From Propionibacteriaceae bacterium (lineage in GTDB: Bacteria; Actinomycetota; Actinomycetes; Propionibacteriales; Propionibacteriaceae): DNA of 44,743 nt. Below are positions 4,311-24,642 of the stretch, piece by piece (the first letter of the stretch is position 1; every line of letters starts with the position of its first letter). A program made the translations under genes and the position numbers. The stretch covers positions 1 to 44,743 of the forward strand of contig JADGPA010000076.1 in NCBI GenBank assembly GCA_017882685.1, given 5' to 3'. The notes below the pieces were generated by a model. That model was not told where the DNA came from and made no database searches. It was given only the letters and a program-made list of their open reading frames with translations.

Positions 4311-6406
4311 TCCAGCGGCTCCGCTGGGGCGAGATCCAGCAAGAGCGCCCGTCGGCGCCCGACACGATGTTCACAAACACCGGGCGCCGGCTCTACGTCA
4401 TCGGCGACATCGACGGCGCTTTTCGCCCGCGTACCAACCCGTATGACCTGCATCGCTACGGAAGGCCGCAGGAGGGCGACCCGCTCGCCAGCCGCTTGCA
4501 GGGTGTGTGGGCACAGCCCGTGAAGGCCCTGAACGGATATGCGTTCGTGGTCGAGAGCGGCGGCCTCCAATGGCCGCTGCTTGACGCGGAGCGCTTCACC
4601 CAGGCCTTCGCCGATGTGCAGTTCGAGTACCACCGGGGAGCACTGACGGCGAAACGGACAGACTTCGTCCCGGACGATCTCCCGGCCCACTTCACCAGCC
4701 TCACGCTGCGCAATGACGGTACCGAACCCGCGGACGCCCGAGTGACGTTTCTGGCCTACTTCGATCTGCGAGACGCGCAATTCACCACATTGACGGACCG
4801 GCCGAACCTTGGCGAGACGGTCCGGGTGGAGGGCGAGAAGCTGGTCGCCCGCTCGTGGCAGTTGCCCGACAAGTGGGCTGTGGCGATTGGGGGAGCGGCG
4901 ACTCCAGCGGACGTGCGGGTGATCGCCGGTGCGGACGGGCACCCGGTCGGGGTGCTGGAGTACGCGGTCCGGCTAGAGCCCGGGGCGGAGAGCCACTGGA
5001 CACTGGGGACGGTCGTGGAAGTCGAGTCGGGGGCCGCTGCCGCCGTGAAGAACCTCGACGACTGGCTTCCGCTGCGGGAGTCCCTGCTGATGGAAAAGCA
5101 GTCGCGGTATGCCAAGCTGCTGGGATCCGGCCCGCGCATGCACAGCCCGGACGCGCATTTCGACGACGCCTTTGACTTGGCGCGCGCGAACCTGGGACTG
5201 CTCGAGGCGGTGACGGGGGCGCTGGGGCCCTTCTTCCACGCGGGGTTGCAGGCCTTTCCGTTCTGGTTCAGCGCCGACGGCGGGTACGGCGCAGCGGGTT
5301 GGCTGGCCGCAGGGTTTGTGGCGACCGGTGAGAACCATCTTCTGATCGGGGCGACCCCCGACACGCTGGGCGGCGTGCCGCACCAACGCTCGCCATCAGG
5401 TGCGATCACGGCGACCGGCAATGCCGTCGAGACTCCCCTGTGGGTGATGAGCCTTTGGGATTCCTACCGCTGGACCGGCAACCGGGCCTTTCTCCAGGCT
5501 GTCTACCCGGCTGCGGTGCGCGGCCTGCTTGCGCACACCCTCGGCGACCTGGATCACGATCGAGACGGCTACCCATCCGGGCCGGGGATGATCGAGCGGG
5601 ACGACATGGCCGCCAAGAAGCTGGACACTGCGGCATACACGTGGGCGGCGTTGCGTGCCCTGGAGCAAATGGCGGGGGCTATGGGCGACACCGGGACCGC
5701 CGCCCGCGCTCGTGGTCGCGCTGACATGCTGGCGGCCGGGTTCGACGCCGCGTGGTGGGACCCGGAGGAAGCCATCTACGCCATGTCGCTGGATGGACCC
5801 GGCAACTCTCGGCGATCGGCACCCCACTGGGCGGTGATCGTACCGGTGGAGGTGGGGCTGGCCAGCCCGGAACGCGCGGCGGCCACCCTCGCCTCCATAA
5901 GATCGAACCATGTCGGCCGATGGGGGTTGAAGCACACGGTTGGCGATGATGAGCGCGTGTGGACGCTACCGACCGCCACGCTCAGCCGGGCCGCCTACCG
6001 ATCCGGGCAGGCGGATCTTGGGTTCCGGATGCTGCAGCTGTTGTCCGCCACGCTCGATCACGGCAGCATCGGCATGTATCACGAGCTGATTCCGGACGGG
6101 CTGAGCTTCCTGCAGCTGTGGTCCGGGTCAACCTTCTTGCGCGGAGCAGTCGAGGACCTGATGGGGGTTCAGGTTCGCGCCGATCTGCACGCGGTCAGGA
6201 TCAGTCCGCAGTTGCCCGCCGAGTGGGAGGCGGCCGAGCTGGAGCGGCTGAGCTTCGGTGGACACACGATCACCGTGCGTGTGACATGGACCGGCCTAAC
6301 GATTACCCACCTGGCTGGCCGGGAGCCACTGAACGTCACGTACGACGCCCCGGAGGGCAGTGAGCGGTCGGCGGTGGTGGACGTGGGCGCGATGGCGCAC
6401 TGGTAG
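4307..6406 (+). CDS. Six-hairpin (alpha/alpha)6 glycosidase, debranching-enzyme-like
   Basis: A 699-residue protein with no signal peptide. The first 240 or so residues form a beta-rich sugar-binding domain with sequence such as LYVIGDIDGAF and SLTLRNDGTEP. The remainder (about 275-640) has the repeated Trp/Tyr-rich helical hairpins of amylo-alpha-1,6-glucosidase and GH63-like enzymes, for example PLWVMSLWDSYRWTGN and DTAAYTWAALRALEQMA. A small beta domain closes the protein. It probably trims an intracellular or imported oligosaccharide; the substrate and catalytic acids are not identified. The GTG start overlaps the higA stop by 4 bp. An internal ATG near 4367 is an alternative start. Its linkage to a toxin-antitoxin pair is unusual. 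Confidence 0.7.
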   Translation: MIQRLRWGEIQQERPSAPDTMFTNTGRRLYVIGDIDGAFRPRTNPYDLHRYGRPQEGDPLASRLQGVWAQPVKALNGYAFVVESGGLQWPLLDAERFTQAFADVQFEYHRGALTAKRTDFVPDDLPAHFTSLTLRNDGTEPADARVTFLAYFDLRDAQFTTLTDRPNLGETVRVEGEKLVARSWQLPDKWAVAIGGAATPADVRVIAGADGHPVGVLEYAVRLEPGAESHWTLGTVVEVESGAAAAVKNLDDWLPLRESLLMEKQSRYAKLLGSGPRMHSPDAHFDDAFDLARANLGLLEAVTGALGPFFHAGLQAFPFWFSADGGYGAAGWLAAGFVATGENHLLIGATPDTLGGVPHQRSPSGAITATGNAVETPLWVMSLWDSYRWTGNRAFLQAVYPAAVRGLLAHTLGDLDHDRDGYPSGPGMIERDDMAAKKLDTAAYTWAALRALEQMAGAMGDTGTAARARGRADMLAAGFDAAWWDPEEAIYAMSLDGPGNSRRSAPHWAVIVPVEVGLASPERAAATLASIRSNHVGRWGLKHTVGDDERVWTLPTATLSRAAYRSGQADLGFRMLQLLSATLDHGSIGMYHELIPDGLSFLQLWSGSTFLRGAVEDLMGVQVRADLHAVRISPQLPAEWEAAELERLSFGGHTITVRVTWTGLTITHLAGREPLNVTYDAPEGSERSAVVDVGAMAHW

Positions 6407-12864: not shown

Positions 12865-14844
12865 TCAGCCGGCAGACAGCACCGCTGACAGGGTGGTTGT
12901 GCGCCGTCGCGCGACAGCGATCGAGCTGGCCAGCAGGGCCAGCAACAGCCACCCGACAAGGGTCAGGGTCGAGGTCACCGCACCCGAGGATTCGGTGACG
13001 ATCGCGCGGACGGCGTCCAGGGCCGGCGTCAACGGAGACAACGGACGCAGGGCTGCGAACACCCCGGGCGCGGAGCCGACAAGGGCCGCTGCAGCGGTCA
13101 GAACTGCGAACAGCACCGAGATCACGCGGCCGATTCCGCCCAGCCAGGCCACCAGCGCATGGTTGATGACAACGAACGTGAGCCCTGCCAGCAGCAGGAC
13201 GCCGGCGATGGCGAACCACTTCTGCGGCGAGAGGCTCAGCCCGAACTGGCCAAGGCCCGCCACGAGCAACGCCTGGACGGCGATCACGACAACGCCCGGC
13301 AGCAGCGAGCGTCCGATCAGCAGCACCGTCGGCTCCGAGGAGTTCAGCAGGCCGGCGCCGATCGCCTTCACCACGGCGTAGACCGCCAGTGCTCCCAGCC
13401 ACAGCGCGAGAATCAGGACAAGGCTGATCCAGCCCACATCCGGGTTGGCAAGGCCGTTCAGGTCGGACGTGTCGATGGGCGCTGCCACGACCGTCGACAG
13501 GTTCTCCCGGTCGGAGCTGGAGTAGCTGGGCAGCTTGTCCTTGCCCTCCGCGATGCCGTCGGCCATCTTCCGCATGCCGTCGGCCAGCTTCGCGCTTCCG
13601 GTGTGCGCGTCGATCAGGCCGGCGCCGAACTTGTCGACCCCCGTGGCCAGCTTGTCGGCGCCGGTGGCGAGCTGCTGGCCGCCGGACTTCAGCTTCTTCA
13701 GCTGGGCCGCGGCCTTCTTGTCCCTGCTTGCCTTAGTGAGCGCAGAAGACAGCTGGCCCACCCCGTCAGCCAGCGCCGCGGTGCCCGACTTCAGGCTCTG
13801 GCCGGTCTGCGGGTCCTTCTGGTCGAGACCGGCGGCAGCGCCGGCGAGCGCCTGCGAGCTCGCGGTGAGGGACGCAACGCAGAGGGGCCCATCCGTGCCG
13901 AGGGCTGCCGGGGTGGTGACGATCCCGCACGCCTGTTTGATGGCGGCGACAAGCTGCGCCGAGACATCCGCACCCTGCCCGAGCGCAGTCAGCAGAGCCG
14001 TGATGCCCTTGGCCCCGTCGGAGGCGTCCTTGGCGCTCTTCTCCAGGCTCGACTGGTAGGTGCCGAGCCCCCCGCTGACCCCCGCTGCGCCGTTGGACAG
14101 CTTGGCAACGTTCTTCGCCAGCACCTTCTGCGAGGACTGGCTCTTGTCGACGAGCTGCCCAACGCCGTCGGCGTACTGGCCGAGGCCGACGGCGAGCTGG
14201 CTGGCACCGGTGTAGAGCTGCTGGCTGCCGTCGGCTGCCTTCCCGATGCCGTCGGAGAGCTTCTCCGCGCCGTCGGCGAGCTGGCCAGAACCGTCGGCCA
14301 TGGTGGTGAACTGCTTGCCCATGTCGTTGAAGCCGATGTAGATCTGCTTCAGGTAGCTCTCCGTGAGGGTCTGGTTCAGCGTGACCGCCGCCTCGTTGGC
14401 CACCAGCTTGCCCAGGGTGGCGTCAGCCACCCCCGCGACCGGTGAGGTACTCACCTCGATGGTGGCCTGCTCGGCCTGGTCGGCGTCCTTGCTGAAGGAC
14501 GTGGCCGCTGCGGAGAAGTTCTGCGGTATCACGACCATGGCCGCGTAGGACCCAGTGCTCAGCCCGGCGCGGGCATTGGCTTCGCTCTCCAGCACCCACG
14601 TGAGGTTCTCCTGGCGGTTGGAGTCGACGAGGTTCGCGGTCAGCTGGCGTCCCAGGGGGCTGTACTGCCCGTTGATGGTAACCGGGTCGTCGAGGTTCAC
14701 CACGGCTGCGCGGACGGTGTGCGTCCGACTGTCCGCGTTCACGCCGGCCAGCAGGAAGCCGCCGGCCACGAGAAGCGGCACAAGGAGCAGGCCGACGAGG
14801 GTGTACCAGCGAGCCGGTGTCGAGTTCAGGTGCTCGAGGTTCAT
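12865..14844 (-). CDS. YhgE/Pip-family membrane protein
   Basis: A 659-residue protein with one N-terminal membrane helix at about 15-35 and a large extracytoplasmic region. This region includes the family's repeated ADG/SDG heptads between about 185 and 260 (ADGSGQLADGAEKLSDG and onward). Five or so C-terminal membrane helices form an ABC-2-like bundle from about 480. The family is the membrane part of exporters related to phage infection protein and type VII accessory proteins. Its ATG overlaps the MMPL stop codon (TGATG), so the two are translationally coupled and probably work together in envelope export. The stop is 1 bp from the convergent plsC stop. Confidence 0.9.
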   Translation of the reverse strand: MNLEHLNSTPARWYTLVGLLLVPLLVAGGFLLAGVNADSRTHTVRAAVVNLDDPVTINGQYSPLGRQLTANLVDSNRQENLTWVLESEANARAGLSTGSYAAMVVIPQNFSAAATSFSKDADQAEQATIEVSTSPVAGVADATLGKLVANEAAVTLNQTLTESYLKQIYIGFNDMGKQFTTMADGSGQLADGAEKLSDGIGKAADGSQQLYTGASQLAVGLGQYADGVGQLVDKSQSSQKVLAKNVAKLSNGAAGVSGGLGTYQSSLEKSAKDASDGAKGITALLTALGQGADVSAQLVAAIKQACGIVTTPAALGTDGPLCVASLTASSQALAGAAAGLDQKDPQTGQSLKSGTAALADGVGQLSSALTKASRDKKAAAQLKKLKSGGQQLATGADKLATGVDKFGAGLIDAHTGSAKLADGMRKMADGIAEGKDKLPSYSSSDRENLSTVVAAPIDTSDLNGLANPDVGWISLVLILALWLGALAVYAVVKAIGAGLLNSSEPTVLLIGRSLLPGVVVIAVQALLVAGLGQFGLSLSPQKWFAIAGVLLLAGLTFVVINHALVAWLGGIGRVISVLFAVLTAAAALVGSAPGVFAALRPLSPLTPALDAVRAIVTESSGAVTSTLTLVGWLLLALLASSIAVARRRTTTLSAVLSAG

Positions 14845-17528
14845 CAGATCGCTCCTTCCAGAACGAGGTGGGAGGGCAACCGGATGAGCTGGTAGGCCAC
14901 CGGCAACTGGGATTCGAGGTCGGACCCGGGCATCACGCCGAGCACCCAGGTGATCGGCGCATCGGCGTCCTGCGGCGCAGTGAGCGCGCGGCGCAACGAC
15001 CGGTCCTGCACATCCTTGAGCTCATCCGCGCTGTCGACGCAGACGAGGCCGCCCCGCTGGCGGCTGAGCACGCGTCCGAAGTGGGGCACGGACGGGCCGA
15101 GCATCGGGGCGAGGCCACGGACGACAGGAGCTTCCTCGGGCAGCACGTGGCCGAGCACCTTCAGGGTTCCCTCGGTGAGCTTCACCCGGCCGGCCAGGGC
15201 TAGCAGAAGCACCCGCCGCTGGGCGTGCTCGCCCTCGACGACCAGCACCTGCCCGGGCTGGACGCTGAGGTCGACTCCGCGGAACAGCGTCCGTCCTCCG
15301 GCTTCCGCAGTGAGCCCCTCGCCAGCGATGGCCGAGGTGTCCTCCGGGGACGGCCAGCTGGCAAGGTGCACCTGCCGGGTGAGCGATTCACCCTCGATGT
15401 CGAGGGACGGCAGCCGTGCGTCCAGCCACTTCGGCAGCCACCAGGCGTGCCGGCCGAGCAGCTTCATCACCGCCGGCACCAGCGTCATCCGGATCACGAA
15501 GGCGTCCAGCACGACGCCGACAGCCAAACTGAACGCGATCGGCTTGATCGCGCCCTCCCCGTTGGGCACGAAGAAGGCGAAGACGGCGAACATGATCAGT
15601 CCGGCGGCGACGACCACCTTCGCCGAGTGCGCGAACCCATCCTCGACGGAGCGCTCGGTGTTGCCGTGCACGAACTCCTCGCGCATCCGGGAGACGAGGA
15701 ACACCTCATAGTCCATGGCGAGGCCGAACAGGATGCCCATCAGGATGATCGGGAGGAAGCTGATCACCGGCCCGGTCTCCGGCAGGTTGATGACCTGCTT
15801 CGCCCAGCCCTTGTTGAACACCAGCGTTGTGGCGCCGAACGCTGCCGCGACGCTCAGCAGGTAGCCGAGCGCAGCCTTCAGAGGCACCCAGATCGAGCGG
15901 AACACGATGGTCAGGAGCACCAGCGACAGCCCGACGACAAAGATGCCGAACGGCAGCAGCGCTGCCTGCAGCTGGCTGGTCACGTCGATCTGGATCGCGG
16001 TGAAGCCGGTGACAGCCGTGGTCACGTCGTAGGCCTGTTTCCACTCGTCCGCGCGCTCGCGGAGGCGTTCGACGAGGTTGGCCGTTGCCGGGTCGTCAGG
16101 GCCGGTGGTGGGGATGATCTGCACCATGCCGGTGTCGACGTTGGCGTTGGGCGTGGCAGCGGCGACCAGCTGGACGCCTGGCATCTTCTGGATGTCGGCC
16201 TTGAGCCCGTCGAGGGCCTTCACGGGATCGTCGAGCTCGACGATGTCGACGGTCATGATCAGCGGGCCGTTGAAGCCGATGCCGAACTTGCTCGTGATCT
16301 CGTCGAAGGTCTCACGGTCCCGGGTGCCGGGCAGGGAGTGCCCCGAGGTCGGCAGCGCCATCGACAGGTCCTTCGCCGGATAGGCCAGTGCGCCGATGCC
16401 GACCAGCACGACCGCGATGGTGACCACCGGCCACGCCGTGACCACCTTGACCCACCACGCGCCGAAGCCGCCGCCGGCCGAGACCTTCGCCTTCCGCACC
16501 TTGCGGACCTTGGGACGCAGCCGCTCTCCGGCGAAGCCCATGAAGGCCGGCAGGAGGGTGAGTGCGAGGAGCACTTCGAACCCGACGGTGAGTGCCCCGA
16601 AGACGCCCATCACGGTGAGGAACGGAAGCCCGGCGATGCTCAGGCCGACGAGGGCAATGATCACGGTGAGGCCTGCGAACACGACGGCGGAGCCCGCGGT
16701 GCCCACGGCGCGTGCTGCCGATTCCTCCACCGCCATGCCGGTGGCCAGCTGGTCGCGGTGCCGGGAGATGATGAACAGGGCGTAGTCGATGCCGACGGCA
16801 AGGCCCAGCATGATGGCAAGCATCAGGGTGGTCGAGCTCACCGAGATCACACCCGCGGCAATCTGCACGCTGAGCACGCCGATGCCCACACCGGCAACAG
16901 CCGTGCCCACCGGCATCATCGATGCCACCAGCGAGCCGAGGGTGAGTACCAGCACGAGGATCGCGACGGCGAGGCCGAGCGCCTCGACGACGGTGATGTG
17001 CGGCACGTGGATGGAGAAGATCTCGCCGCCGATCAGCACCGTGGAGCCGGGCAGCGTGGTCTCGAGCGTGCTTGCAGCCTCGGTCAGCTGTTCGCGTTGC
17101 GCGTCGGTGATGGTGGAGGAGGTGCCCTGCACGCGGATCATGGCCCGCCCGCTGGCTCCGTCGTCACTGATCAGGCCGTCGACGTGTTCGTTGTAGGGGT
17201 CGATGACACCCTTCACGAACGGCACCTTCTCGAGGTCCTTCGACCAGTCGGCGATCGCGTCCTTGACCAACTTGTCCTCGAGCCTGGAACCCTTGGGGGC
17301 GTTGATCAGGACCGTCGCGGTCGCGTCGGCGGCCTCGGGGAAAGTGACCTTCAGCTGGTTCAGTGCCTTGGTCGAGCTGGCGCCGGGAACCTCGAAGACG
17401 TCGTTGAAGTGGCCACCGATCGTCAGGGCCAGGCCGGCGAACAGCACCAGCACCACGGTCCACGCGATCAGCACACGCCCGCGCAACCGGTAGCACGCAC
17501 GGCCAAGGCGATACAGGAACGATGACAA
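14844..17528 (-). CDS. MMPL-family RND exporter with C-terminal degenerate ABC-ATPase domain
   Basis: An 894-residue protein. Residues 1 to about 700 are a complete MMPL pump: MSSFLYRLGRACYR, one helix, a periplasmic loop, five helices with the proton-relay sequence GLAVGIDYALFIISRHRDQL, a second loop, and a second bundle with GLAMDYEVFLVSRMREE. Two catalytic-type Asp-Tyr pairs (IDYALF and MDYEVF) are intact, so proton-driven export is plausible. Residues from about 735 resemble an ABC nucleotide-binding domain (GGRTLFRGVDLSVQPGQVLV), but the Walker A is GEHAQRRVLL with no GK(S/T), no LSGGQ is present, and Walker B ends VDSAD without Glu. TTG 17528 is chosen because GGAAGGGAG lies 4 nt before it. 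The gene is divergent from tetR. Confidence 0.88.
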   Translation of the reverse strand: MSSFLYRLGRACYRLRGRVLIAWTVVLVLFAGLALTIGGHFNDVFEVPGASSTKALNQLKVTFPEAADATATVLINAPKGSRLEDKLVKDAIADWSKDLEKVPFVKGVIDPYNEHVDGLISDDGASGRAMIRVQGTSSTITDAQREQLTEAASTLETTLPGSTVLIGGEIFSIHVPHITVVEALGLAVAILVLVLTLGSLVASMMPVGTAVAGVGIGVLSVQIAAGVISVSSTTLMLAIMLGLAVGIDYALFIISRHRDQLATGMAVEESAARAVGTAGSAVVFAGLTVIIALVGLSIAGLPFLTVMGVFGALTVGFEVLLALTLLPAFMGFAGERLRPKVRKVRKAKVSAGGGFGAWWVKVVTAWPVVTIAVVLVGIGALAYPAKDLSMALPTSGHSLPGTRDRETFDEITSKFGIGFNGPLIMTVDIVELDDPVKALDGLKADIQKMPGVQLVAAATPNANVDTGMVQIIPTTGPDDPATANLVERLRERADEWKQAYDVTTAVTGFTAIQIDVTSQLQAALLPFGIFVVGLSLVLLTIVFRSIWVPLKAALGYLLSVAAAFGATTLVFNKGWAKQVINLPETGPVISFLPIILMGILFGLAMDYEVFLVSRMREEFVHGNTERSVEDGFAHSAKVVVAAGLIMFAVFAFFVPNGEGAIKPIAFSLAVGVVLDAFVIRMTLVPAVMKLLGRHAWWLPKWLDARLPSLDIEGESLTRQVHLASWPSPEDTSAIAGEGLTAEAGGRTLFRGVDLSVQPGQVLVVEGEHAQRRVLLLALAGRVKLTEGTLKVLGHVLPEEAPVVRGLAPMLGPSVPHFGRVLSRQRGGLVCVDSADELKDVQDRSLRRALTAPQDADAPITWVLGVMPGSDLESQLPVAYQLIRLPSHLVLEGAI

Positions 17529-17633: not shown

Positions 17634-18275
17634 ATGGCCACCAACACTCTGACGCCTCGCCGCACCCAGACCCGCGAGAAGCTGATGGACGCAGCAACCT
17701 CGCTGTTCGCGCAGAAGGGCGTGCTCGCCGCAAGCGTCGAGGAGATCTGTGAACGGGCCGAGTTCACCCGCGGCGCGTTCTACTCCAACTTCGCCGACAA
17801 GGACGAGCTCTGCCTCGCCGTGCTGAACCGGCAGGCCGCTCGAGAGCTGCTCGCGACTCAGAAGGCGGTGGCCACCCTGAGTGGCGCCGTCCTGGCGGCC
17901 AACACCATCGACGGCCTTGTCGAGTTGGCCCTCAGCGTCTTCCTCGCCGCCCAGCCCCGCAGCAGCGAGGATCTCCTGGCCGCCATGGAACTGCGGCTGC
18001 ACGCGATCCGCAGTCCCGGCTTGCGGGCGTCGCTGCTGGCGCTCAACGAGGAGATGGTCGAGCAGATCGGAACCCAGCTGGTGACAGCGATCGGGCGGGT
18101 CGGGGCCACGCTGACCGTCCCCGTCGCCCAGGCGATCGACCTTCTGCACGCGGTGTACACCCACAGCGGCAGCACCGCCCTGCTGAACGGGCTGGAGCCT
18201 GACGACCAGTCCCGCCGGGCACAGCTCACGGCCCTGCTGAAATCGCTGGTGATCGAAAGTGGCACGCGTCGATAG
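17634..18275 (+). CDS. TetR-family transcriptional repressor
   Basis: A 213-residue regulator. The N-terminal helix-turn-helix is classical: RRTQTREKLMDAATSLFAQK, then ASVEEICERAEFTRGAFYSNF and DKDELCLAV. The C-terminal ligand domain is all-helical and not assignable to an inducer. A strong ribosome-binding site (GGAGGAAGG) precedes the ATG. It is divergent from the MMPL-YhgE operon across the 17-bp repeat array, so it should repress the exporter and itself until a substrate binds. Its TAG stop forms the first three bases of the ldh -10 box. Confidence 0.93.
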   Translation: MATNTLTPRRTQTREKLMDAATSLFAQKGVLAASVEEICERAEFTRGAFYSNFADKDELCLAVLNRQAARELLATQKAVATLSGAVLAANTIDGLVELALSVFLAAQPRSSEDLLAAMELRLHAIRSPGLRASLLALNEEMVEQIGTQLVTAIGRVGATLTVPVAQAIDLLHAVYTHSGSTALLNGLEPDDQSRRAQLTALLKSLVIESGTRR

Positions 18276-22822: not shown

Positions 22823-23602
22823 TCACCGGCCTGGAGGCCACGCCGTCGCGGCGACCAGCAGGACGGTCGCGCAGACTTCCACCAGCGCGCCGAGCACGTC
22901 GCCGGTCACGCCGCCGAGGCGTCGGACGCAGCGCACGATCAGCCAGATAGACGCCAGCACGGCGAGCGCAACGCCAACCCCCGGCGCCCAAAGAGGCTGG
23001 CCGGTGAGCGCGGCAACCCCTTGCGCCGCGGCGAGCCCGACCAGCCAGCTCACCACCGCCGCCGGTACGCCGACGCTGCCGGCAACCAGCGCCCCGAGCC
23101 CGTCCGGACGGGCCGCAGGCACCCCCTCGACGCACCCGAACAGCAGCGCTGCGCGCGAGAGGCAGACCAGCACCACCACCTGCAGCCAGCCGAACGGGCG
23201 GGTCAGGATGACCCCTGCCGCCACCGCCTGCAGCCCCACGGCAAGGACCAACGCAACCGTCCCCATCGGCCCTACATCGCCGCGTCGCATGATCTCCAGG
23301 GCCCGCTCGGCGTCCTGGCCGCTGCCGAGGCCGTCGGTGGTGTCCGCAAGCCCGTCCAGGTGCATCGCCCGCGTACCGAACGCCAGCACCGCCACGGCCA
23401 CAAGCCCGGCAACGATTCCGGGCACGCCCACCGCAACCAGACCCCAGCCGACGAGGCCTGCGCCCAGCGCGACCGGCAGCACGGCGAAGGGTGCCAGCAG
23501 CATCGCCGCGCGGGCCTCACGCCGTCCGATCGCCTCCGGCGGGCGCACCGGCACGATCGTCAGCAGCCCGACTGCGAGCCGCAGTCCGGCAAACCGGTTC
23601 AT
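22823..23602 (-). CDS. cobS: Adenosylcobinamide-GDP ribazoletransferase
   Basis: A 259-residue polytopic membrane enzyme that joins adenosylcobinamide-GDP to alpha-ribazole (phosphate) to give cobalamin. The metal- and substrate-binding motif HLDGLADTTDGLGSG is complete (about 69-83). The remainder alternates hydrophobic helices with few charges. Its ATG overlaps the cobT stop codon by 4 bp (ATGA), so the two are coupled. Confidence 0.95.
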   Translation of the reverse strand: MNRFAGLRLAVGLLTIVPVRPPEAIGRREARAAMLLAPFAVLPVALGAGLVGWGLVAVGVPGIVAGLVAVAVLAFGTRAMHLDGLADTTDGLGSGQDAERALEIMRRGDVGPMGTVALVLAVGLQAVAAGVILTRPFGWLQVVVLVCLSRAALLFGCVEGVPAARPDGLGALVAGSVGVPAAVVSWLVGLAAAQGVAALTGQPLWAPGVGVALAVLASIWLIVRCVRRLGGVTGDVLGALVEVCATVLLVAATAWPPGR

Positions 23603-24642
23603 GTCAGGTCGGAGAGCTGCGCGATCCCGTTGAGGGCAGCCACGGCTGAGCGCACCATCGGCACGGCGAGCACGGCCCCGCTGCCCTCACCGAGACGCAT
23701 CGAGAAGTCCACGAGCGGCTTGAGCCCGAGCCGGTCGAGCGCGAGGGCCTGGCCGGGTTCGGTGGAGCGGTGCCCCGCCTGCAGCCAGGCCTTCGTGCCG
23801 GGAGCGAGGTCCTCTGCCACCAGCGCCTCGGAGACGGCGATCACGCCGTCAAGGAGCACCGGGACGCCACGACGGGCAGCTCCGGTGATGAACCCGACGG
23901 CTGCAGCGAAGTCGGCCGCGCCGAGGGCTGCGAGGCGCTCGGTCGGGTCGGCGATGCGATCGCCTGCGCGGGCGATGGCCGCCTCGATCAGCGCCGTCTT
24001 GTGTGCAAGGGTGCCCTCGTCGATGCCGGTGCCACGACCGGTCACGGCTGCGGCCGGGACGCCGAGGCTTGCAGCGATCAGGGCGGCGGCGATGGTGGTG
24101 TTTCCGATGCCGAGGTCACCGGAGATCAGCAGCTGGGCGCCGTCGGCGATCTGCTCCGCGGCGATCTGGTCGCCGGCAGCGAGCGCCTGCTCAACTTCTT
24201 CGCGGGTGAGGGCGTCGGTGAGGTGGATCGCACCGGAGGACTGCCGCACCTTGAACCGGCTGATCTCTGCCGGCAGGTCGGGGAAGTCGACCGCTACGCC
24301 GAGGTCGTAGATCGAGACCCGGACGTCATTGGCCGCGGCGAGCGCGGACACCCCGGCGTGCCCACCGGCGATGCCGTACACCATCGCCGGGGTGATCTCT
24401 GTGGGGTAGGCGGACACCCCGTCCTGCGCGACGCCGTGGTCTCCGGCGAACACGATCACCCGCACGTCCTCGAGCTGCACCGGCGGGCACTGCCCTTGGC
24501 AGGCGGCCACCCAGGCGGCCAGCGTCTCGAGATCGCCGAGGGCGCCGAGCGGCTTGGCCTGCCCGTCGCTGTGGGCCCTTGCTGCGGCGTAGGCGGCGTT
24601 GCTGGGGGCCTGGACGGGGGTACTCAGGACGTACTGGATCAC
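23599..24642 (-). CDS. cobT: Nicotinate-nucleotide:dimethylbenzimidazole phosphoribosyltransferase
   Basis: A 347-residue cytoplasmic enzyme that makes alpha-ribazole phosphate, the lower-ligand nucleotide of cobalamin. It has VFAGDHGVAQDGVSAYP, GDLGIGNTTIAAAL and LQAGHRSTEPGQ. The catalytic Glu lies near the end, in LGEGSGAVLA. The GTG at 24642 is leaderless by pattern (TAGGGT at 24649-24654 on the minus strand, 6 nt upstream). There is therefore no room for a cobalamin riboswitch in the leader. It heads the cobT-cobS operon. Confidence 0.95.
   Translation of the reverse strand: MIQYVLSTPVQAPSNAAYAAARAHSDGQAKPLGALGDLETLAAWVAACQGQCPPVQLEDVRVIVFAGDHGVAQDGVSAYPTEITPAMVYGIAGGHAGVSALAAANDVRVSIYDLGVAVDFPDLPAEISRFKVRQSSGAIHLTDALTREEVEQALAAGDQIAAEQIADGAQLLISGDLGIGNTTIAAALIAASLGVPAAAVTGRGTGIDEGTLAHKTALIEAAIARAGDRIADPTERLAALGAADFAAAVGFITGAARRGVPVLLDGVIAVSEALVAEDLAPGTKAWLQAGHRSTEPGQALALDRLGLKPLVDFSMRLGEGSGAVLAVPMVRSAVAALNGIAQLSDLT

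Follow-up and report, generated by a model that had tools for sequence, protein, structure and literature searches.

What does a domain of the kind that drives ATP-binding cassette (ABC) transporters do at the end of a pump that presumably runs on protons? The question is raised by one gene on contig JADGPA010000076.1 of a Propionibacteriaceae bacterium (assembly GCA_017882685.1, a 3-Mb draft in 215 contigs), of which the whole stretch analysed here, positions 1 to 44,743, is called the window. The gene lies on the minus strand at 14844–17528 and encodes an MMPL transporter of the RND type with a degenerate ABC nucleotide-binding domain (NBD) at its C terminus; the gene that follows it encodes a YhgE/Pip family protein. 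An MMPL pump carrying such a remnant, of about 160 amino acids (aa), is confirmed by the analysis. For its role, we lean towards a non-hydrolysing adaptor that would dock the ABC-2-like YhgE protein onto the proton-driven MMPL pump.

An MMPL pump with an ABC-type tail

The MMPL protein has 894 aa, reading from a TTG start at 17528 to a stop at 14844–14846, with the coding part of the open reading frame (ORF) at 14847–17528. The start is supported by a methionine in column 1 of at least 90% of the rows of a 22-row alignment (A3). The membrane body, aa 1–711 (15396–17528, minus strand), is defined by the Pfam family PF03176 and by conservation in the same alignment; PF03176 matches the body twice and, at 286.2 bits, exceeds its cut-off of 20.5. 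The pairs Asp248–Tyr249 and Asp606–Tyr607 are invariant in all 22 rows. We take these pairs to be the proton-relay sites whose role is known from MmpL3 work, and by transmembrane (TM) numbering they presumably lie in TM4 and TM10. The doubled PF03176 match and the Asp–Tyr pairs in both halves are features shared with MmpL3 and other MMPL/RND pumps, and MmpL3 also aligns with the membrane part at its C-terminal edge. Unlike MmpL3, the window protein then continues into the NBD remnant; to our knowledge, none of the known MmpL C-terminal tails is an ABC domain. The NCBIfam MmpL3 model gives the protein 156.3 bits, under its cut-off of 1400, and the nearest named relatives, among the best 80 of 587 stretches, are 67–82% identical to it.

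The remnant itself spans about aa 732–894 (14847–15335, minus strand). From the single sequence, its assignment to the ABC NBDs is weak: a Pfam scan of the tail returns no match, the gathering score of ABC_tran (PF00005, 25 bits) not being reached; the NCBIfam CcmA model matches with an expectation value (E) of 6e-5, far under the model's cut-off; and a phmmer search of the PDB has a best E of 0.006. With relatives included, the assignment is firm. The tail part of a 49-row profile matches ABCA3 (E 6e-6), MlaF (8.8e-6) and HmuV (1.9e-5) in the PDB, the top matches of the profile as a whole being MmpL3 chains owing to 26 MMPL columns at its start, and the NBD profiles matched by the tail family include CcmA, MlaF, NosF and LptB. 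ABC_tran matches one of the 49 aligned tail rows at E<=0.01. On four fused tails chosen from among the relatives, PF00005 scores 60.6 (L103), 28.7 (L161), 27.3 (L108) and, under 25, 23.6 bits (L075).

An AlphaFold2 model of aa 712–894, built from a 55-row alignment, has a mean predicted local distance difference test (pLDDT) score of 94.1 and a predicted template modelling (pTM) score of 0.89. In a Foldseek search of the PDB, FtsE (E 8.8e-10) heads the 877 structures that match this model at E<=0.001; nearly all of the 50 matches listed are ABC transporters or their ATPases by title, with a few titles (among them those of 7ekl and 8fed) silent on the point. By this model, the tail has the ABC NBD fold with its RecA-like core. 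The preliminary description of the locus, made from the sequence alone, had placed a complete RND/MMPL pump before an ABC nucleotide-binding remnant and had proposed a structure prediction with a fold search as the check; pump and remnant are both borne out, the latter by profile and predicted fold alike. With the single protein as the query, no relative of the tail was found in viral contigs.

Loss of the catalytic motifs

The window tail departs from a working NBD at Walker A, in the signature subdomain and at Walker B. At the Walker A position it reads GEHAQRR (aa 766–772; 15213–15233, minus strand), with Arg771, nearly invariant in the 22-row alignment, in place of the lysine and with a P-loop one residue shorter. 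The Walker B remnant is LVCVDS (aa 828–833; 15030–15047, minus strand), in which Asp832 is followed by Ser833 at the position of the catalytic glutamate. The helical subdomain with its signature motif is deleted: about 28 residues separate the post-Walker-A arginine from Walker B, compared with about 77–106 in relatives that have the helical region, and the subdomain is missing from the AlphaFold2 model. A broken Walker A, a missing signature loop and a Walker B without its glutamate had all been read in the preliminary description, and the alignments leave that reading intact.

The same description called the domain dead and named relatives with intact motifs as the evidence that would count against it, and here the outcome is divided. 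Within the genus of the window, the pattern GxxxxGK[ST] occurs in none of 27 tail rows. In the wider set of 111 tailed rows, the lysine is kept in 16, the full pattern in 14 of those 16, and the helical region in 21. These 111 rows are the tree set reduced from a motif table of 117 fused rows, repeats included, of which 19 have the lysine; a genome that keeps the P-loop (G180, represented by L228 and L277) lies outside the tree, which leaves one P-loop row fewer in the 111. With 14 of 111 tails retaining a P-loop, the word dead therefore holds for the window and for the rest of its genus but not for the subfamily as a whole.

The rows with a full P-loop belong to groups g31, g30 and g27 and come from Amycolatopsis, Kutzneria, Diaminobutyricibacter, Myceligenerans and Arenivirga. 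Two further rows (L068 and L140) have the lysine and not the full pattern, and in other members its place is taken by Val, Ala, Thr, Ser or Gly. In all 16 lysine-keeping rows, Asp stands at the position of the Walker B glutamate. Some members of g31 have both GPSGSGKT and the helical region; their signature region reads LxRLER, and their Walker B glutamate is likewise replaced by Asp. On the MMPL-body tree described below, at least six changes of lysine state and three of helical state are required. The window tail is a late stage in this series of motif loss.

Spread and origin of the tail

Of 30 genomes sampled in the genus, 26 (the window's among them) have the tail, in 27 rows that align along most or the whole of it. 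One genome of the genus (G015; L080 and L081) has two distinct tailed MMPL–YhgE pairs, with 61% and 55% identity to the window MMPL. With the whole protein rather than the tail alone as the query, 129 of 147 genomes and 28 of 29 genera of a family sample match at E<=1e-40. In an order sample, matches at E<=1e-120 occur in 206 of 245 genomes, and many of those listed stop near residue 717 and are tailless. The tail was detected in 64 of the 80 named loci, which were the top-ranking 80 among 587 stretches confirmed, and the genera with a tail include Microbacterium, Agromyces, Leucobacter, Nocardioides, Amycolatopsis, Kutzneria, Saccharopolyspora, Bifidobacterium, Brevibacterium, Cutibacterium and Tessaracoccus.

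A FastTree phylogeny of 131 MMPL bodies, with the tail excluded, has a branch of 99% support that separates 111 tailed rows from 18 tailless rows, the sampled proteins being best matches to the window protein family or picks from the family and order samples rather than a random draw of MMPLs. Two more rows fall on the tailed side, one of them truncated where its contig stops and the other interrupted by a frame break; repeats, fragments and low-scoring rows (L084, L086–L099, L122, L126, L158, L227, L228 and L277) were left out. Since the tailed MMPLs form one clade, one fusion event is the simplest reading, and on this tree the MMPL probably acquired its tail once. Over six comparisons, the ratio of nonsynonymous to synonymous substitution rates (dN/dS) is 0.08–0.52 in the tail and 0.13–0.31 in the body, with the tail below 1 in all six. 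These ratios indicate that the tail is under purifying selection and, together with the alignments within the genus, that it is neither a chance extension nor plain decay.

YhgE as the constant partner

The gene downstream of the MMPL gene (12865–14844, minus strand) encodes a YhgE/Pip family protein of 659 aa with ABC-2-like membrane ends and heptad repeats. The YhgE N-terminal model TIGR03061 scores 113.2 bits, over its cut-off of 96.15, TIGR03057 is also matched, and the C-terminal model TIGR03062 scores 66.4 bits, under its cut-off of 102.2, with an E of 2.6e-18. PF12698 (ABC2_membrane_3) scores 50.9 bits against a cut-off of 31.6. Homologues of the PIP family are reported to include putative ABC-2 superfamily transporters (PMC3924187). 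Against a library of defence systems, the single match was a marginal one between YhgE and ZorA through coiled coil (E 0.00095).

The two genes are closely joined. The ATG of yhgE overlaps the MMPL stop by one base (TGATG), and a Shine-Dalgarno-like stretch, GGAAGGAG, lies within the last MMPL codons (14852–14859, minus strand). The tail ends in LEGA, a C terminus that is frequent in the 27-row genus alignment; the ribosome-site-like stretch of yhgE encoded there would explain its frequency.

This junction recurs across the tailed loci. The pairing set comprised 128 loci (80 named and 48 further, with the tails of L066 and L126 identical), and yhgE starts were placed by alignment. In 104 of the 107 loci with a detected tail, yhgE starts between about -31 and +81 nucleotides (nt) from the MMPL stop; two of the other three are at a contig edge, and the third (L062) is a frameshifted read-through into yhgE. 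In the other 21 loci no tail was detected and yhgE is never adjacent: 18 of them are truly tailless, one is cut off where its contig ends, and two (L158 and L172) were scored as tailless owing to frame breaks, with yhgE present in the stretch. Three loci (L170, L179 and L122) lie at contig ends. A gene fusion of MMPL and YhgE in one genome (G039; L041/L062), where a frame of 1876 aa runs at 4962–10592 of L062, was considered and rejected. A normal tail end and stop are present in another frame, so that the read-through is a frame change and looks like a sequencing error or a mutation.

The reverse survey started from YhgE. Across 148 genomes of the class it gave 57 matches, 37 of them over the family cut-off with the window's own excluded; all 37 and a further 13 below the cut-off were inspected. 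Directly upstream of the 37 genes stands a standalone ABC-like ORF in 30 cases, an MMPL fusion in six and neither in one (L257), and no MMPL match was found near the 30 standalone cases in the 13–18 kb stretches read. The ABC-like model used for this survey had fused tails and 13 standalone rows as its seeds; five partners (L236, L237, L241, L244 and L245) that a canonical model misses lay outside this seed set, and one (L239) was detected only through a 21-bit canonical match and by eye. Of the 13 lower-scoring matches, one (L259) overlaps the frame of a tailed MMPL, and another (L260) is preceded by an intact ABC ORF of the canonical kind, the arrangement of an ordinary ABC-2 exporter; no such partner was found for the other 11. 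Judged from these samples, the constant pair is YhgE with a degenerate NBD, and the ABC-like domain appears to follow YhgE, not MMPL.

Two MMPL paralogues in the window's genus (L115, 5009–8434; L116, 3847–7017) have an internal match to the heptad-repeat part of YhgE, and no separate YhgE gene was detected in their stretches. They are possibly MMPLs with an internal YhgE-like coiled region.

The standalone partners retain the helical region. Five of the six scanned score over 25 bits with PF00005 (e.g., L238 at 53.3, L243 at 51.2 and L231 at 41.1), and the sixth, L236, has no Pfam ABC_tran match. None of the 30 has the Walker A lysine (29 by alignment, L239 by eye): 21 have Arg at its position (e.g., GPSGSGRT), three have His and six have another residue. 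In many of them Arg or His replaces the lysine in an otherwise well-formed P-loop, a consistent rather than a random replacement (examples are L231, L232, L262 and L270–L275, and also L233–L235, L238, L242, L243, L245, L247, L248, L263 and L276). Since the standalone partners are degenerate too, motif loss does not come from capture by the MMPL alone.

On a tree of the domains, 39 fused and 29 standalone members group together at 99%, apart from 19 canonical ABC ATPases that were taken from these loci as well. The split between fused and standalone members reaches only 55%, and the standalone label requires two changes on the tree. Profile–profile comparison gives an E of 1.5e-19 for fused against standalone domains and 8.8e-15 for fused domains against canonical ABC. 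The preliminary description had supposed that a separate ABC protein stands beside YhgE in other actinobacteria and was captured here by the MMPL, and it had suggested a survey of whether tailed MMPLs keep YhgE as a neighbour. The 30 of 37 class-wide YhgE genes with a standalone partner confirm the first supposition, the shared grouping of the domains and the single clade of tailed MMPLs support the second, and the survey found yhgE beside nearly every detected tail and beside none of the 18 truly tailless MMPLs.

A proposed mechanism

In the reading we favour, the NBD of an actinobacterial YhgE system was attached, probably in a single event, to the C-terminal end of an MMPL. It then lost its helical and signature subdomain and, repeatedly, its Walker motifs, becoming a pseudo-NBD. 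At the cytosolic face, this pseudo-NBD would most likely have kept its old contact with YhgE and would thus fix YhgE to the MMPL, and export by the pair would be powered by the proton motive force through the MMPL and not by ATP.

The observations beneath this proposal are the homology of the domain, its loss of motifs, the one tailed clade, the strict pairing with yhgE in two architectures, purifying selection, and overlapping genes with a ribosome-site-like stretch in the tail's last codons. Since the ABC-like domain is found beside YhgE with or without an MMPL, it would be the cytosolic partner of YhgE, and the fusion would tie YhgE to the pump. Since the tail lacks what ATP hydrolysis needs and the body keeps its Asp–Tyr pairs, the energy presumably comes from protons via the MMPL. 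A catalytically competent NBD for a YhgE complex does not appear to be provided at the locus: the motifs of the tail are lost, and a purpose-built model found no canonical ABC ORF in the window, to which the search was confined, a distant gene being possible. From this pattern we infer physical docking, the formation and stoichiometry of a complex, the source and flow of its energy, and the direction of transport. By analogy with the MMPL family, the substrate could be guessed to be a lipid or another hydrophobic compound.

A possible lead comes from Saccharopolyspora hirsuta. Published RNA-seq with cholesterol has the YhgE gene F1721_04135 up 3.82-fold and the MMPL gene F1721_04140, under a neighbouring tag, up 3.33-fold (PMC9782250). 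Among the MMPLs fetched, those of three other Saccharopolyspora (L146, L153 and L157) have tails. The co-induction fits a joint MMPL–YhgE role and may lead to the substrate class or the inducer.

Several points weigh against docking. The contact between MMPL and YhgE is one that we infer. In known ABC transporters, the helical subdomain forms half of the groove that grips the coupling helix; with this subdomain missing, the window tail cannot have an intact docking site of the canonical kind. A pure scaffold could dispense with the P-loop that 14 of 111 tails have, and in five of the six comparisons divergence is faster in the tail than in the body. The structural model of YhgE is of moderate quality (pLDDT 74.4, pTM 0.55), and its membrane part matches ABCG2 weakly, with a probability of 0.99 over 223 columns but an E of 0.92; in the structure search with YhgE, coiled-coil proteins come top, and ABCA and ABCG proteins appear from rank 20, none at E<=0.001. 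We know of no need of an ABC partner for B. subtilis YhgE or lactococcal Pip, both from outside the actinobacteria.

Mirror-tree analysis of 46 loci does not decide the matter. Given the MMPL body, the tail correlates with the membrane part of YhgE at r 0.353, a value that 0 of 2000 permutations reach; the tail against the N-terminal part of YhgE gives 0.163 (39/2000), and against the neighbouring TetR-like regulator 0.159 (49/2000). The membrane part of YhgE correlates with the same regulator at 0.322 (0/2000), close to the tail–YhgE value. Because the regulator correlates nearly as well, the analysis says nothing on contact between tail and YhgE.

Alternative roles for the tail

The tail might instead sense a nucleotide, binding ATP or another nucleotide without turnover and thereby switching the pump or the MMPL–YhgE contact; members with a P-loop would bind in the ordinary way and others through the Arg at the lysine position. 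The tails that keep GxxxxGK[ST] suit such a sensor, as does the Arg found at the lysine position in 21 of 30 standalone partners and in the window, where Arg771 hardly varies among relatives, and the AlphaFold2 model retains the P-loop strand and helix. However, the pattern is gone from the whole genus sample and the loop is a residue short, every lysine-keeping row has Asp for the Walker B glutamate, and other tails have one of Val, Ala, Thr, Ser and Gly where the lysine was. We regard a sensor as unlikely, though worth keeping in view.

It is improbable that the tail concerns the MMPL only, stabilising or regulating the pump while YhgE is merely co-expressed. The tail is covalently part of the MMPL, and tailless MMPLs exist and are presumably functional, but the degenerate ABC domain also stands beside 30 class-wide YhgE genes that have no MMPL match in their 13–18 kb stretches, and tailless MMPLs adjoin yhgE in 0 of 18 cases.

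We give very little credence to a working ATPase of an unusual kind, whether it acts by itself or forms the weak half of a heterodimer whose other, intact NBD is encoded at a distance. ABC exporters often do pair a degenerate NBD with an intact one, and the g31 members come nearest to such a site with their GPSGSGKT and helical region. Even in g31, however, the signature region is LxRLER and Asp replaces the Walker B glutamate, and the window has a tail without the signature subdomain and, within the stretch searched, no canonical ABC ORF to pair with it.

That the tail is a vestige without function, on its way to being lost, is hardly credible: the repeated changes of lysine state (at least six) and the faster divergence of the tail would suit decay, but the confident fold, purifying selection, retention across many genera in one clade and strict yhgE linkage do not, the C-terminal LEGA being set aside here as having a separate cause in the ribosome-site-like stretch of yhgE.

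Neighbouring genes

The regulator used in the mirror-tree analysis (17634–18275, plus strand) is divergent from the MMPL gene, and its TetR name is a reading of its sequence. A TetR homologue is present in the fetched stretch of 51 of the 64 named tailed-MMPL loci, compared with one of the 16 scored as without a tail, and in none of the 12 named loci in which the helical region is kept. Further along the window, two overlapping ORFs on the minus strand (22823–24642) resemble CobS (cobalamin synthase) and CobT and are adjoined by a CobU-like ORF on the opposite strand; all three were named by eye.

Relation to known systems and meaning

The locus resembles several known systems in part. Like ABC-2 exporters of the ABCG, Wzm–Wzt and CcmAB types, it sets a membrane protein with an ABC2_membrane_3 signature beside an ABC NBD-type protein; unlike them, its NBD is without the Walker A lysine, the signature subdomain and the Walker B glutamate and is a covalent part of an RND-type pump. 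Its YhgE shares with the YhgE/Pip family (phage infection protein; TC 9.B.74) a TIGR03061 score over the cut-off and heptad repeats, and differs in having a degenerate ABC partner or an MMPL partner, neither of which was found described in the open-licence literature. In asymmetric ABC exporters, too, a degenerate pseudo-ATPase NBD is retained as a structural part. The second NBD of those exporters is intact and drives transport, whereas no intact NBD was found here within the window. The open-licence literature, which is narrower than print at large, yielded no description of an MMPL–ABC fusion, nor of an ABC protein partnering YhgE; among 5.39 million papers, two came up for YhgE together with MMPL, and the passages concerned deal with other matters. 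The locus combines known component families in an arrangement for which no description was found.

A more speculative step would be to see these loci as a hybrid class, an ABC-2-like YhgE exporter with a switched-off ATPase built into an RND-type pump, in which the proton motive force taken up by the MMPL would move YhgE by way of the old ATPase domain, now a mechanical linker; we offer this tentatively, as doubtful on present evidence.

ABC transporters, which use ATP, and RND transporters, which use protons, are treated as separate worlds. Here an RND-type pump took over a piece of an ABC system, which suggests that two types of transporter were joined into one machine. Through this finding, the YhgE/Pip family, for which no mechanism was found described, gains a partner and a testable role, and so does a set of MMPL exporters. 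Tails in which the P-loop and the helical subdomain are variously kept or lost make a natural series for probing what an NBD may do without burning ATP. The catalytic parts were lost in stages that can still be seen among living species, and the domain has been kept across many actinobacterial genera.

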